Of a DNA stretch of 64,000 bases, positions 58,682 to 64,000 are shown piece by piece (the stretch's first letter is position 1; every line of letters starts with the position of its first letter). The translations under genes and the position numbers were made by a program. The notes under the pieces are model-generated. The model had not been told where the DNA came from. It worked only from the letters and a program-made list of their open reading frames with translations, and did no database searches. Origin of the DNA: Flavobacterium omnivorum (lineage in GTDB: Bacteria; Bacteroidota; Bacteroidia; Flavobacteriales; Flavobacteriaceae); the NCBI RefSeq assembly GCF_900099915.1, contig NZ_FNDB01000019.1:1-64000 (forward strand). Direction: 5' to 3'.

Positions 58682-58799
58682 TGGGCGTGACCCTGCAGCG
58701 GCTTTGTCGTTCCTCCTCGCCACTTTGGGTCGGGCGGTACGCTGTATCTTTATTTTCTTAAAGAAAGAAAATAAAGGATGCCGCTTCCCTCCCTCACGC
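58682..58799. repeat. flavobacterial hairpin repeat, copy E
   Basis: Ends GCGTGA (58685-58690) and TCACGC (58794-58799) are inverted, with the core GGGTCGGGC ... CGCTGTATCTTTAT ... ATAAAGGATGCCGCTTCC. The central stem is a perfect 12-bp pair (58748-58759 with 58765-58776). Closest to copy A. Confidence 0.82.
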
Positions 58800-58865
58800 A
58801 AACCGTAATAACTATAACGTTTATTCTTTTCCAGAAAAATTGTAAGAAAAATTTAATATATTTGA
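58794..58865 (+). repeat. promoter-like module, copy 1
   Basis: About 72 bp, near-identical to 62347-62418 (about 90 percent by eye). It contains TTG at 58840-58842 and TATATTTG at 58857-58864, a Bacteroidota-type promoter, though the spacer (14 bp) is shorter than the usual range. Confidence 0.8.
58857..58864 (+). promoter_or_regulatory. -7 motif TATATTTG at the head of the array
   Basis: Matches TAnnTTTG. Lies upstream of abiH and in the same position in the second copy of the module. May drive cassette expression. Confidence 0.5.
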
Positions 58866-58893
58866 GGGAGTATAGAACGAAAGAAAGTTTCAC

Positions 58894-58955
58894 CAATCTA
58901 CCCATATTTTGATGTATAGACGAAGGTTTGTTTCGCCTATATACAAGTTGGCAGA
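58894..58955. repeat. attC/attI-like palindrome R0 before the first cassette
   Basis: Imperfect stem (TTGATGTATAGACGAA with TTCGCCTATATACAAG around 58910-58946, loop GGTTTG) ends in CAAGTTGGCAGA. The core G at 58947 begins GTTGGCAGA, the exact complement of the start (TCTGCCAAC) of the palindrome at the far end of the same unit. Not similar in sequence to R1-R3 apart from the core. Confidence 0.5.
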
Positions 58956-58992
58956 CAGCATATTGCGAATCGTTGAAAATAAAACATATAAA

Positions 58993-60275
58993 ATGAATAG
59001 AATAATACTAATTGGAAATGGTTTCGATTTAGCACACGGAATGTTAACTAGTTATAGAAATTTTATTGATGACTATTGGAAAGAATTTTTAAAAGAAATA
59101 GATAATGGAAATTTTCATAAAAACGAATTTGAAAACGAAGAATTAATAATAAAATTTTTCATTGGTTATGATTTAAGCGATATTGATACTTACAAAAAAT
59201 TAAAAGACAAAATTGAAAATTATCGTGTAGAAAAATTGAAATTAAGTTCAAGAATAAATTTTTTGAAATCATAAGCACGAATTGCTTTATCAATAATTGG
59301 GTTGATATCGAAAATGAGTACTATTTATTGCTAAAAACTTCTTTCAAAGAAAAAAATTGCAATTACAAAATTGACTCATTAAATCAAGACTTCTATAAGA
59401 TTCAAAAACTACTAGAAGAATATCTGAAAAAGGTTGAAACAAAATTCAATGAAGATTTCGGAAAAGATATGAATAGTGTAAGAATGAGGAGTAACATTGG
59501 TTATAAAGTTTATTCAGATTTTAAACTTAAAGATTTTACTGAATCATCAATTAACAAAAAAACCGAATTCGAATTTTCTAAATTGCAAAATGACATTAAA
59601 GGGTTGAAAGATAATCAAGTTGAATTATCAGAATTAAAAGAAGAAAATCGTAATCTAATTTCTCGAATTGGAGAAAATAATCCAATAAAAGAATTACGTA
59701 AATTATTAATTTCAGAAAGCGCACCTAATTACTTCCTTTTGCAACCTGAAGAAATTTTATTTCTAAATTTCAATTACACATTTACTGAAAAAATATATTC
59801 CAATCACAATGAATTTGAATCATATCACTCAAACAGTGGATTAAAGAAAAAATATATACATATTCACGGAACAACAGATCAATATGATAGAAATGACGTC
59901 ATCTTTGGCTTTGGAGATGAAATTGATGAAGATTATAAATCTATAGAAAATCTTAACAATAATGAATATCTCGAAAACATAAAATCTATTAAATATTTAG
60001 AAACAGATAATTACAAACAATTGTTAGAATTTCTAAATAGTGGAGATTATCAAATATTTATTTTTGGTCATTCTTGTGGAATATCTGACAGAACATTATT
60101 AAGTACTTTGTTTGAGCATAAACATTGCGCATCAATAAAACCATTTTATCATAAAAGAGTCGATGGGACTGACAACTATAGTGATATAATTAGAAATATT
60201 TCAAGAAATTTCAACAACAAATCAAGTATGCGTGACAAAGTAGTGAATAAAGAATATTGTGAGTCACTAAAATAA
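58993..60275 (+). CDS. abiH: AbiH-family abortive infection protein with a -1 frameshift
   Basis: An AbiH-type protein. The first part (58993-59274) starts MNRIILIGNGFDLAHGMLTSYRN, the signature N-terminus of AbiH. The second part (from about 59265 in the -1 frame, to 60275) carries NWVDIENEYY, FLNFNYTFTEKI, KYIHIHG and the C-terminal FGHSCGISDRTLLSTLFEH of the family. Together they give about 427 residues, a normal AbiH size. The shift lies at a run of six T: T-TTT-TTG at 59259-59265 in the zero frame, a classical -1 slippery heptamer. Either one T is lost (pseudogene) or a programmed -1 slip makes the full protein. AbiH defends against phage by abortive infection. The gene lies at the head of the cassette array; a longer ATG start at 58909 lies in the palindrome and is rejected. 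Confidence 0.82.
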
Positions 60276-60284
60276 AAATGCCGA

Positions 60285-60410
60285 TCTGCCAACCGCTGTT
60301 TTGATATAGCTTGAATTTAGTGGAATTGCCGTTCCGCATCAAGTTTTCGTTAAGCCGAAAATTGAGCGGTTACGAACTTCCAGCCATCTCAAAGCAGCAA
60401 AACGTTAGCC
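60285..60410. repeat. attC-like palindrome R1 (3' end of abiH cassette)
   Basis: 126 bp from TCTGCCAAC to GTTAGCC. Arms GCTGTTTTGATATAGC and the reverse complement of CATCTCAAAGCAGC pair with few mismatches (about 17 of 21). A central arm (AGTTTTCG ... CGAAAATT) forms the apex. Ends AAAACGTTAGCC, with cassette exchange expected after the G at 60404. R2 and R3 are clear relatives. Confidence 0.72.
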
Positions 60411-60431
60411 ATAATACTAAACAAATAATAA

Positions 60432-61232
60432 ATGAAACAACTTTTAATATTTTTAACTATCGGAATTTTACTTTTTTCTTGTTCTAGTAATGACGAAGAA
60501 ATTGAGAACGCTCAAAATAATGCCCCTTTGATAACCAAAATGAGTCCTTACGGTCTCACTTCAGAAAATCAATCTGGGTTATACACTTATTTTGAATATG
60601 ACAATGCCAAACGATTAACTAAAAAATCGGGAAATTTTATTGAAATAAATCCCAGAACATTTTATATAAATGAAATATGTACTTCTTTAGAATATGACAA
60701 TAATATAGTTACTGTTGAAAACTTCACAACATTAGTGGGAAAGTCAGTTCCTAAGGAATCTATTTACATTACTTTAAATAAATCAATGCAAATTGAGAAA
60801 AAAGAAATTCCAAATGGTTACAATAACTCTTGGTATAGAAAACTTCTTTATTATTATTCAGACAATAAACTTGTGGAAATAAAAACAACTTTTCCAAATA
60901 CACCTTATACTTTTCCGGATAATTATTTGTTGACTTTCTCAGAAAAATTCTACTATGACTCTAATAGTAATTTAAGCAAAACTGAATATTTTGAGCAACG
61001 TAATAGCATAAATAAAGGTGAAAAAATTGTTCGAATATTTGAAAATTATGATAATTCTATAAATCCTTTGAAAAGGTTTTATTTATTAGATCAGTATTTC
61101 TATGGATCAATCTCAAAAAACAATTACACGAAATATACTGAAATACATTACGATGATGATGTGGAAACTACAAAACATGAAAGTAGCTGGAAATATTTGT
61201 ATGACGAAAAAGGAAATATTTTGGTTAATTAA
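60432..61232 (+). CDS. lipoprotein of unknown function (cassette gene)
   Basis: A 266-residue lipoprotein: signal peptide with lipobox LLFSC (Cys17). The body is rich in YxYDxxxxL-like strands (YTYFEYDNAKRL, YYSDNKLVEIKT, YYDSNSNLSKTEYFE, YLYDEKGNILVN), the pattern seen in flavobacterial lipoproteins with RHS-like beta repeats. No catalytic residue is evident. It is anchored at a membrane. It occupies its own cassette between palindromes R1 and R2, and its start is 21 bp after R1. Confidence 0.75.
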   Translation: MKQLLIFLTIGILLFSCSSNDEEIENAQNNAPLITKMSPYGLTSENQSGLYTYFEYDNAKRLTKKSGNFIEINPRTFYINEICTSLEYDNNIVTVENFTTLVGKSVPKESIYITLNKSMQIEKKEIPNGYNNSWYRKLLYYYSDNKLVEIKTTFPNTPYTFPDNYLLTFSEKFYYDSNSNLSKTEYFEQRNSINKGEKIVRIFENYDNSINPLKRFYLLDQYFYGSISKNNYTKYTEIHYDDDVETTKHESSWKYLYDEKGNILVN

Positions 61233-61250
61233 TTATTGAGATAGTACTAT

Positions 61251-61375
61251 GGCTGACAGCTGTTTTGAGCTAGCTGGAGTTTAGTGGAATTATCGTTTCG
61301 CATCAACTTTTCTGCAAAGCAGAATGTTAAAAGGTTACAAATTCCCCACCATCGCCAAGCTGCCAAACGTTGTGC
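61251..61375. repeat. attC-like palindrome R2 (3' end of lipoprotein cassette)
   Basis: 125 bp from GGCTGAC to GTTGTGC. Shares GCTGTTTTGAGCTAGCTGGAG, TTTAGTGGAATTATCGTTTC and GGTTACAAATTCC with R1/R3. The sequence before it (AGTACTATGGCTGAC) is the reverse complement of the start of the same unit (GTTAGCCATAATACT) with two mismatches. Confidence 0.75.
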
Positions 61376-61417
61376 GAAACTTTCGAGCGACAGAAAAACG
61401 AAAACAAACAAATAAAT

Positions 61418-62146
61418 ATGAAAAAACATTTAACAATTTTAGCATTTGTGCTTTTAACATTCAACTCTTTTTCACAGAATAAAACCGGAAATGAAATAAC
61501 AGCGGAAGGAATTGCAAAAATGAAAGTTAAGCCAGATTTGGCAAGTTTTAGAATTAGTGTTTCAAAACGTAATTTAGTAGAAAAGATTTCAATTAAGGAA
61601 TTAAATGAAGAAATAGAAAAAGTACAGAAATTACTTTTGCGAATTGGTTTTACAGAAAAAAACATTAAAATCTCGGAATACAAAGTATCTAGTGATGAAC
61701 ATAATGACAATAAAAAGGAATATACATCTGAAAATACTTTGGTTGTTGAATTTGCTCTTGATAACAAAATAATTGAGGCATTTTATCAAGAAATACAAAA
61801 CGAAAACCTAAAAGATTCAGATATAGATTTTGAAACTCAGGTTTCTGATCAATTAGAAAAAACTACAAGACAAAATCTAGTAAAAATTGCAATTGGAGAA
61901 GCAAAAAGTAATGCAGAAAATATTGCAAATGCACTTGAAGTGAAACTGCTAAATGTAAAACAAGTTTCAAAATTTACAATGCGTGATTTTGAAAGTGCTT
62001 CTATGATGAAAGTGTCAGAAATTAAAATGGGTAAAGTTATGCCAGCAATGGCTTCAAATCAAAAAACTTCTTTTGATAAATTTGATGTGGAAGAAAAAGA
62101 ATTGGAAGAAACGATTACAATTGTTTACGAAATAATAAATAAATAA
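61418..62146 (+). CDS. SIMPL-domain (DUF541) secreted protein (cassette gene)
   Basis: A 242-residue export protein from ATG 61418 (signal peptide MKKHLTILAFVLLTFNSFSQ). A longer frame from 61370 starts in the R2 palindrome and is rejected. The SIMPL domain is recognised by EITAEGIAKMKVKPDLASFRISVSK, then KLLLRIGFTEKNIKISEYKVS and ENTLVVEFALDNK. SIMPL proteins (Brucella BP26-like) form ring channels in the periplasm; the precise role is unknown. It is a cassette between palindromes R2 and R3. Confidence 0.85.
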   Translation: MKKHLTILAFVLLTFNSFSQNKTGNEITAEGIAKMKVKPDLASFRISVSKRNLVEKISIKELNEEIEKVQKLLLRIGFTEKNIKISEYKVSSDEHNDNKKEYTSENTLVVEFALDNKIIEAFYQEIQNENLKDSDIDFETQVSDQLEKTTRQNLVKIAIGEAKSNAENIANALEVKLLNVKQVSKFTMRDFESASMMKVSEIKMGKVMPAMASNQKTSFDKFDVEEKELEETITIVYEIINK

Positions 62147-62155
62147 AAAGCAATC

Positions 62156-62276
62156 GCACAAAAGCTTTGAGTTAGCTGGAGTACAATGGAATTATCGTTT
62201 CGCATCAAGTTTTCGTTAAGCCGAAAATTGAGCGATTATGAACCTCACTTCATTTCAAAGATGCAAAACATTATAA
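62156..62276. repeat. attC-like palindrome R3 (3' end of SIMPL cassette)
   Basis: 121 bp from GCACAAA to ATTATAA. Its central part, from TGGAATTATCGTTTCGC through CGAAAATTGAGCG, is nearly the same as R1 and R2. Begins TCGCACAA, the exact complement of TTGTGCGA that opens the same unit. Core at the right end is ACATT rather than ACGTT. Confidence 0.75.
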
Positions 62277-62293
62277 AAAAACTCAAACTAGAA

Positions 62294-62344
62294 ATGAAAT
62301 ATGCTGAATTTAATATTGACTATAATAAAAAAGAATTCTTAAAC
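62294..62344 (+). pseudogene. 5' fragment of the gene that follows R4
   Basis: The sequence from 62270 to about 62344 matches 63776 to about 63850, including the ATG and 16 codons (MKYAEFNID...). It breaks off at TTAAAC and joins promoter-like module copy 2. It is a broken duplicate of the hypothetical protein that begins at 63798. Confidence 0.75.
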
Positions 62345-62346
62345 CT

Positions 62347-62418
62347 TCACGCAAACCGCAGTAACTATAACGTTTATTCTTTCGCATGAAAATTGTAAGA
62401 AAAATTTAATATATTTGA
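62347..62418 (+). repeat. promoter-like module, copy 2
   Basis: Second copy of 58794-58865, with TATATTTG at 62410-62417. After it follow a spacer, the shared CAATCTACCC (62447-62456) and a palindrome, the same order as at the head of the array. Confidence 0.8.
62410..62417 (+). promoter_or_regulatory. -7 motif TATATTTG before the protease gene
   Basis: TATATTTG fits TAnnTTTG exactly, in the second copy of the module. Confidence 0.5.
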
Positions 62419-62461
62419 AAAAACATAAGGTGCAATTCAATAGCGACAATCTACCCGATTA

Positions 62462-62520
62462 GGGTTGAGTGTAAACGATATTTCGTGGCGAGTAAAAACA
62501 AATTGACAGTAATTCAACCC
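62462..62520. repeat. palindrome before the protease cassette gene
   Basis: GGGTTGA (62462-62468) and TCAACCC (62514-62520) are perfect terminal inverted repeats, with an internal ACGA/TCGT stem. Differs in sequence from R1-R3 and from R0 but holds the same place relative to CAATCTACCC. Confidence 0.55.
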
Positions 62521-62535
62521 AAAATATAATAACAA

Positions 62536-63708
62536 ATGATAAATATTAGAATCGTAATATTTCTTCTGCTTTCAAATTATTGTGTTGCACAAGATGTAAA
62601 TTTTAATTTAGGGAATTCGAAAGAATTAAACTATTATTCAGAAATACCTTTTGAATATGTTAATGGAAAAATAATAGTTTCAGTATTAATAAATGAAAAT
62701 AAATATAGATTTTTATTAGATACTGGTGCACCAAACCTAATAACAAAAAGATTAAGTACTATTTTAAATCTTGAAAGTTTGCAGGAATTAAAAATTAGTG
62801 ATGCAAATCAAATAAAGTCAACAATGAATATTGTTCAATTACCAAATTTGACAATAGGTAGTATTATTTTTGAAAATTCAGTTGCCTTATCTTCGCAAGA
62901 CGAAAATAATTTAGTATTTGATTGTTTTGAAATTGATGGTTTTATTGGAAGTAATTTATTAAGAAACTCGATTATTCAAATTGATGTTAAAAATAAAATA
63001 TTAATAATAACTAATGATCTTAAAAAACTTCACTTAAACAATGAAAATAGTTCAAAACTATCATTATTTGGGCAACAAAGTAGTCCTTTTATATGGTTAA
63101 AATTAACCGGCTCAAAAGATAGTGGCAAAGAACAAGTACTATTGGATACAGGAATGAAAGGTTTTTATGATATTTCACATAAAAATTATATAAAATTTAA
63201 AGATGAAAAAATTTTTAGTGAAGTTGCAAATGGAAAAGGTTCAGAAAGCATTGGATTAAGCGGGAATTCTCCAGAAAGTGAACAGGTAAGATTACTACTT
63301 AAACATATGAAGATTGCAAATTCAGCTTTCCTAAATATATCGACTACAACTACAAATGATAATAATTCGAGGATAGGAATTGGCTTATTCGAAAATGGTA
63401 TAGGTACAATTGATTTTATTAACAAAAAATTTTATTTTGAACAATATGAACATAATAAAGATTTAATCGAAAAATATTTACCGTTTTCCCGGACAATAAT
63501 AAATAATAAGCTCTCCATCGGTATTGTCTGGGATGAAAAATTGAAAGCTAAAATAAATTACGGTGACGAAATCATTGAAATTAATGGAAAAAACTACGAA
63601 AACTATAAATTATGTGATTTTATTAATAAATCAATTTTTGAGAATATCACAGTTTCAGAAATAAAAATAAGAAATAAAAAAGGTGAAATCAACATAATAA
63701 CATTGTAA
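62536..63708 (+). CDS. two-lobed retropepsin-like aspartic protease with C-terminal PDZ-like domain (cassette gene)
   Basis: A 390-residue export protein with a signal peptide (MINIRIVIFLLLSNYCVAQ). The first aspartic lobe has FLLDTGAPNLIT (Asp62-Thr-Gly), the second VLLDTGMKGFYD (Asp204-Thr-Gly). Both catalytic DTG triads are present on one chain, like pepsin-fold or flavobacterial retropepsin-like enzymes. The C-terminal part (about 320-390, with INYGDEIIEINGKNYENYKL) is PDZ-like. It should cleave proteins in the periplasm or at the surface; substrate unknown. The gene is the largest in the cassette region and is preceded by promoter-like module copy 2. Confidence 0.82.
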   Translation: MINIRIVIFLLLSNYCVAQDVNFNLGNSKELNYYSEIPFEYVNGKIIVSVLINENKYRFLLDTGAPNLITKRLSTILNLESLQELKISDANQIKSTMNIVQLPNLTIGSIIFENSVALSSQDENNLVFDCFEIDGFIGSNLLRNSIIQIDVKNKILIITNDLKKLHLNNENSSKLSLFGQQSSPFIWLKLTGSKDSGKEQVLLDTGMKGFYDISHKNYIKFKDEKIFSEVANGKGSESIGLSGNSPESEQVRLLLKHMKIANSAFLNISTTTTNDNNSRIGIGLFENGIGTIDFINKKFYFEQYEHNKDLIEKYLPFSRTIINNKLSIGIVWDEKLKAKINYGDEIIEINGKNYENYKLCDFINKSIFENITVSEIKIRNKKGEINIITL

Positions 63709-63712
63709 AAAA

Positions 63713-63782
63713 TCACAACAAAAAACTGTTTTGATATAGTGTCTAATTCCATACAACATTTCAATGCAGCGGAACATTATAA
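63713..63782. repeat. shortened attC-like palindrome R4
   Basis: About 70 bp. Begins TCACAAC and ends GGAACATTATAA. Left arm CTGTTTTGATATAG and right arm CATTTCAATGCAGC match the outer arms of R1 and R3, but the apex (about 55 bp) is missing. It looks like an internally deleted attC-like site. Confidence 0.6.
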
Positions 63783-63797
63783 AAAATCAAACTAAAA

Positions 63798-64000
63798 ATG
63801 AAATACGCTGAATTTAATATTGACTCGAATAAAATAGAATTCTTAAACTCAGTTTTTGGAATTGAAAGTGTTTTACTGAATGGAAAAAGAATTTCTAAAA
63901 AGTTTTCTTTTTCTGGAATTACCCACGAAATAAAACTAAACGCCAGAGATTTAGTATTAGAATCCAAATGCAAACAATTCGACAAAAAAGAAATCAAACT
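63798..64000 (+). CDS. hypothetical protein, start only (cut by window edge)
   Basis: Open from ATG 63798 to the window edge (67 codons). Begins MKYAEFNIDSNKIEFLNSV and continues with VLLNGKRISKKFSFSGITHEIKL. It is the next cassette gene after R4, and a 51-bp broken copy of its start lies at 62294-62344. No family recognised. Confidence 0.7.
   Translation, partial: MKYAEFNIDSNKIEFLNSVFGIESVLLNGKRISKKFSFSGITHEIKLNARDLVLESKCKQFDKKEIK

Follow-up and report, generated by a model that had tools for sequence, protein, structure and literature searches.

The region 58846-63778 is very probably a satellite array of a Bacteroidota-type integron, made up of an attI, three cassettes each closed by an attC, and a second, decaying unit that is again led by an attI. 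The window in which it lies comprises positions 1-64000 of a 67,381-nt contig (C14), in a genome of 3.81 Mb distributed over 40 contigs, which its relatives mark as flavobacterial. That the region is an integron-like cassette array is strongly supported, and the system recurs across Bacteroidota, apparently run by an integrase without the extra domain that defines the known integron integrases. The window array is taken to be a satellite on the strength of the complementarity of its cassette ends (the end rule, see below), an attI matching the one behind an integrase elsewhere in the genome, the linkage of integrase, attI and array in relatives, and the absence of the cassettes from congeners. 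Its present activity is doubtful: it looks old, having a frameshifted abiH and decayed R3 and R4, and thus may be inactive now.

The array in the window

The features are as follows, where cassette bounds presuppose a crossover at G^TT, as in integrons:

58846-58951, + strand: attI1, attI-like primary insertion site; conserved leader with TATATTTG box, hairpin, core GTTGGC at 58947
58948-60404, + strand: cassette 1 (abiH, frameshifted), bounded by the end rule; ORF pieces 58993-59274 and 59328-60275
60288-60410, + strand: R1, attC-like site closing cassette 1; covariance model 94.8 bits, E 1.7e-17; in training set
60405-61369, + strand: cassette 2 (lipoprotein gene 60432-61232), bounded by the end rule
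61252-61375, + strand: R2, attC-like site closing cassette 2; covariance model 77.3 bits, E 9e-14; in training set
61370-62270, + strand: cassette 3 (SIMPL gene 61418-62146), bounded by the end rule; Pfam SIMPL 72.8 bits
62154-62276, + strand: R3, attC-like site closing cassette 3; covariance model 45.6 bits, E 5e-7; not in training set
62392-62505, + strand: attI2, second, degenerate attI-like site, from the alignment of attI copies; core ATTGACAG at 62502
62536-63708, + strand: aspartic protease gene of the attI2-led unit; Pfam Asp_protease_2 30.4 bits
63713-63778, + strand: R4, attC remnant of ~65 nt, arms only, no CGTT core; CTGTTTTGATATAG common to R1
63798-64000, running on to contig position 64148, + strand: orf116, resident gene at the distal edge, judged by its congener orthologue

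As the preliminary description of this DNA had proposed, R1, R2 and R3 are genuine relatives, long palindromic repeats on the + strand with one gene before each (nhmmer E < 1e-28). They stand far above chance. An attC covariance search, which that description had suggested, was carried out with a model built from 35 sites and recovered all three, including R3 from outside the training set. The stems of R1 covary, and the core of R3 has decayed, with ACATTA in place of ACGTTR. Beyond these three, the model found no attC-like site in the 64-kb window (the next best match had E = 0.07), and R4 was not picked up. Genome-wide, it found 22 attC-like sites, seven of them on C17, five on C25, three each on C14 and C26, and two on C24, with single sites on C28 and C37. 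Related palindromes thus do lie beside other single genes elsewhere in the same genome, where their absence had been named as grounds for giving up the cassette interpretation. In Rfam there was no match to an attC family, the only hit being a Flavo-1 RNA adjoining the array.

The N-terminal piece of abiH matches Pfam AbiH (34.4 bits), and its reading frame is broken near 59240-59330, through either decay or a sequencing error. A lipoprotein 59% identical to the product of cassette 2 sits between two attC on C25. Of the five palindrome-ended units originally described, those with the abiH, lipoprotein and SIMPL genes stand, whereas the aspartic protease unit ends in the ~65-nt remnant. The fifth gene, orf116, is by its sequence context a resident gene rather than a cassette: an orthologue 86% identical lies at the same locus of the congener G157 without an attC, and nothing attC-like was found downstream of it with the covariance model. 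This leaves three complete cassettes, the fourth palindrome being a truncated remnant and orf116 a resident gene.

The start of the array had been placed at 58894, and is corrected here to 58947, behind the attI-like site at 58846-58951. This site is 80% identical (E 1.2e-19) to the one directly behind the integrase on C17, and the homology of the two regions starts at the integrase stop codon. On C17, the attI core GTTGGTGGCA and the end of the first cassette are complementary. The leader repeat of attI2, D3, is 91% identical to 58791-58865, and further attI copies are present on C25 (three) and on C24. The TATATTTG box is common to eight aligned attI copies from three genomes, points into the cassettes and resembles the Bacteroidetes -7 promoter element; it is at most a candidate promoter, which might serve the first cassettes.

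Cassette ends, attC structure and mobility

In integrons, the cassette circle joins the first bases of the cassette (TTRRRY) to the last (RYYYAAC..G), and a cassette therefore begins with the reverse complement of its closing site's left end. This end rule is obeyed by 3/3 window cassettes: the start of cassette 1, GTTGGCAGA (58947), is complementary to TCTGCCAAC (60285); that of cassette 2, GTTAGCCATAATAC (60404), to GTACTATGGCTGAC (61244) at 12/14 bases; and that of cassette 3, GTTGTGCGA (61369), to TCGCACAA (62154). These pairs were read by eye and their coordinates then checked; a search by an exact 9-mer rule recovered 0/3 of the window cassettes, owing to point changes or a decayed core. 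Among relatives, where attC sites were defined without the end rule, 35/49 cassettes have start/end pairs that are perfect at 6/6 variable bases, versus 1.2% of pairs swapped within an array. Such complementarity is the signature of circularising integron cassettes.

We measured 198 attC sites, in which GTT was fixed by the search rule. Their span from AAC to GTT peaks at 117-121 nt, with a minor mode at 182-187. The base after GTT is R in 89% of sites, and R at positions 5 and 6 is found in only 38% and 48%, respectively; the bases after GTTR thus vary and depart from the R' core GTTRRRY. With DNA folding parameters, the mean energy is -19.7 for the bottom strand, -17.4 for the top strand and -10 for shuffled sequences, the bottom strand being the more stable one in 164/198 sites. 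Arms match over at least 6 nt in 76% of cases within one site, versus 17% when swapped between genomes. Two attC stems covary, with 96.7% of cells paired versus at most 46.6% when slid, and 131 cells changed on both stem sides versus 38 in shuffles. These sites are accordingly imperfect palindromes conserved in structure rather than in sequence. Speaking against the integron reading, T-G pairs are frequent at one stem position of the top strand and become A-C mismatches on the bottom strand. On the whole, the evidence supports the earlier proposal of integron-like cassettes with a lineage-specific attC family.

Three cassettes are shared between genomes; their DNA identity goes from ~50-60% outside the GTT boundary to 76-96% over the 50 bases that follow GTT, and is ~90% over the 50 after those. 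One of them opens the array behind attI in one genus and in another is located deep in the array after an attC, its identity climbing from ~55% to 96% at GTT. The orthologous place of the window array lies between genes for an APC permease and a dehydrogenase; in a comparison across species, with one genome per species, it holds orf116 and unrelated genes in G157, an attI remnant and two other genes in G179, and other genes in G169, and the window cassettes are absent from this locus in all three. A constant order of the same genes and palindromes in sister genomes, which would have spoken against the cassette interpretation, was thus not what we found.

The integrase and its linkage to arrays

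The array had been described as lacking an integrase, which holds for the locus and not for the genome. A tyrosine recombinase of 347 aa (P0001) is encoded at C17:4719-5762, with an attI and then an array directly behind it. A search of the genome for the IntI family, also advised earlier, yielded many tyrosine recombinases, none above the cut-off: P0001 scores 204.6 bits against TIGR02249, under the curated cut-off of 265, and 218.6 bits against NF040815 (XerA_Arch), a near miss of the curated cut-off of 220. The IntI-family search also gives below-cut-off matches in 14/14 control genomes. Between two conserved blocks P0001 has 22 residues versus 64 in IntI4 (2a3v), and the KGxKDR-to-HxLRH spacing, in those Bacteroidota integrases where both motifs were measurable, is 57-63 versus 100 in four true IntI. 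By the domain that defines the family, the enzyme linked to these arrays is no IntI, and for this reason the alternative raised earlier, a different recombination system, is partly right: the cassettes are integron-like, but the integrase lacks the IntI-defining domain.

Across 20 aligned integrases the catalytic residues R/K/H/R/H/Y vary little or not at all, and many of the integrases have an extra N-terminal domain of ~70 aa. In a tree, the integrases with arrays branch within Bacteroidota sequences and are interspersed with several relatives that lack an array, two Xer-like genes from elsewhere in the genome group separately, and the four true IntI of the same scan, which carry the insert, group apart together with one unclassed row. 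Since this tree is midpoint-rooted and its bootstrap had not settled, leaving the deep forks unsettled, a separate origin and a loss of the I2 domain of IntI both fit. With Foldseek, the integrase model is nearest to XerA and IntI4; the model is weak (pTM 0.53, residues 321-335 below 50 pLDDT), so that no conclusion rests on this placement.

Integrase homologues are present in 89/151 Flavobacteriaceae genomes (E <= 1e-60), 55/121 congeners and 95/297 Bacteroidota genomes (both E <= 1e-70). Across 21 integrase loci (304 kb), the exact 9-mer rule finds 153 end-rule cassettes behind the integrase on its strand, 2 on the opposite strand and 0 upstream; the corresponding counts in other Bacteroidota families are 41 vs 7. 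In most loci fetched, from several families, the I2-less integrase is directly before attI and array. Named strains with an array behind the integrase are Algibacter onchidii, Seonamhaeicola aphaedonensis, Winogradskyella ursingii, Flavobacterium aciduliphilum and a Rufibacter, and one locus (L063) has ~22 consecutive cassettes with near-identical attC. Some homologues have no array. Of the congener contigs fetched, roughly half stop no more than ~4 kb past the integrase, as would be expected if a repetitive array followed. On a Chryseobacterium plasmid, where the integrase is 70% identical, the end-rule count is 3 vs 3. A match on a Flagellimonas plasmid was rejected as a transposon-linked XerA without an array.

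The covariance model finds attC in 54/61 congeners, with at least 56 in one genome, several of them at the very ends of contigs. Many congeners have attC and no integrase match at E <= 1e-70; a hand tally gives ~10 attC per genome without such a match vs ~18 with one. The number of attC per genome follows the presence of the integrase only loosely, so that this presence was not used as proof. Linkage nevertheless makes a recombinase of the C17 type (P0001 family) a well supported candidate for the recombinase of the window array, on which it would act in trans. Such an enzyme would cleave at the GTT core, release or take up circular cassettes and insert them at attI, and, by analogy with IntI, may work on the folded attC strand.

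Competing explanations and known systems

One may also consider that an ordinary IntI, lost since, produced the cassettes, the C17 recombinase being an unrelated XerA-like neighbour. R1-R3 lie within 2 kb with no integrase at the locus, in keeping with a CALIN, which takes two or more attC spaced by less than 4 kb and no integrase nearby; CALINs are common (PMC9024848), and the attC anatomy, the G-TT core and the bottom-strand bias resemble canonical attC. However, no IntI above cut-off is found in the genome, the core reads GTTR with variable bases after it rather than GTTRRRY, across several families most of the loci fetched have the I2-less integrase immediately ahead of attI and array, and the window array, unlike a CALIN, has its own attI-like site, homologous to that behind the matching integrase on another contig of the same genome. 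We therefore regard such an origin as unlikely.

Still less credible are two further explanations. Ordinary palindromic intergenic repeats (REP-/MITE-like, or terminators), standing behind genes by chance and distributed by gene conversion or a transposase, would agree with what is seen in that the repeats lie behind stop codons, fold and occur as single copies scattered over several contigs; yet they leave unexplained the complementarity between the start of a unit and the left end of the next repeat, the arrays behind one integrase and on one strand only, and the onset of homology exactly at GTT in shared genes. Equally improbable is the repeated insertion of a phage- or ICE-type element at attI with the attC-like palindromes as by-products, in favour of which one could cite that genomes carry several copies resembling attI and that some of these stand immediately before single genes. 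The units are, however, single genes with their own palindrome, up to ~22 in tandem, without phage or conjugation genes, and their stems covary as recombination sites would.

If the window array is indeed a satellite of a Bacteroidota-type integron, it can be compared with sedentary chromosomal integrons such as the Vibrio superintegron. The two share the cassette layout, an attI at the platform, palindromic covarying attC that are near-identical within one genome, the G-TT core, end complementarity, a more stable bottom strand and clusters without an integrase. In contrast, the Bacteroidota integrase lacks the I2 domain, groups apart from IntI, often carries the extra N-terminal domain of ~70 aa and is encoded upstream of attI on the strand of the cassettes, while the core is GTTR with free following bases and the commonest attC span is 117-121 nt. 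The I2 domain is seen as enabling IntI to recombine folded single-strand attC and serves as a mark for finding integrons (PMC9024848, PMC9668308); Ghaly et al. treat this extra domain as distinguishing IntI (PMC9668308). One review lists Bacteroidota among integron-bearing phyla without detail (PMC8618304), and in the literature searched Bacteroidetes integrons are reported only as rare. No description of these arrays was found there, and an earlier one is possible in the subscription journals and preprints that mostly lie outside it.

Arrays of dozens of cassettes tied to an I2-less integrase would mean that the I2 domain is dispensable, that a large part of the integrons of Bacteroidota has escaped surveys, given a homologue in more than half of the Flavobacteriaceae sampled, and that the cassettes exchanged there form an unexplored pool. 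Two questions would also become open to experiment: by what route tyrosine recombinases acquired their activity on hairpins, and for what reason the phylum had appeared to be almost free of integrons. We tentatively entertain, with somewhat more doubt than belief, that the Bacteroidota integron is of independent origin, a XerA-like lineage having gained hairpin attC recombination without I2, perhaps with the N-terminal domain in its place, and having built superintegrons that IntI-based searches overlook. By family score, sequence and fold search, XerA-type recombinases (NF040815; PDB 4a8e, 5hxy) are closest to P0001, whose type differs from them in standing before an attI and cassette array, in ending in an SPLD-like tail, as IntI does, and in that its array-bearing members group within Bacteroidota sequences.

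Copies of the attI site and the surroundings of the array

The attI-like site is present at several places in the F. omnivorum genome, namely at 58846 and 62392 in the window, at 206807, 205555 and 200815 on contig C25, and at 26352 on contig C24. These copies lie within cassette arrays or head them, and are sometimes found immediately 5' of one single gene; attI itself therefore seems to be subject to duplication.

The attI leader of the window array is immediately adjoined by a Flavo-1 RNA (RF01705, 57 bits; 58724-58817, minus strand), which overlaps the beginning of a stretch that has a second copy at 62344. Within the first cassette, abiH carries a frameshift at 59240-59330, close to an A/T run, which may reflect either decay or a sequencing error. 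Near the end of contig C14, an ORF at L017:9067-9381 resembles a transposase, of IS3 type as judged by eye.

Integrase relatives

The integrase P0001, encoded on contig C17, has an additional N-terminal alpha/beta domain (residues 1-60), which is common to many of the integrases, is missing from the shortest, and has no Pfam match. A 432-aa relative of this integrase (C25:199491-200789, i.e. L019:6491-7789, minus strand) combines a loss of catalytic residues with an added extension at the C-terminus. It is flanked by an attI copy on one side and an attC-like site on the other, and is itself borne in the manner of a cassette.

An integrase with 70% identity to P0001 is encoded on a Chryseobacterium plasmid (NZ_CP041688.1), with several genes downstream on the same strand; this integrase and the genes behind it are possibly a mobile version.

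attC sites in relatives

One congener genome (G180) contains at least 56 attC sites over many contigs, several of them at contig ends, probably representing one large superintegron fragmented by assembly. The attC sites of relatives include a second size class, measuring 182-187 nt from AAC to GTT as opposed to 117-121 nt.
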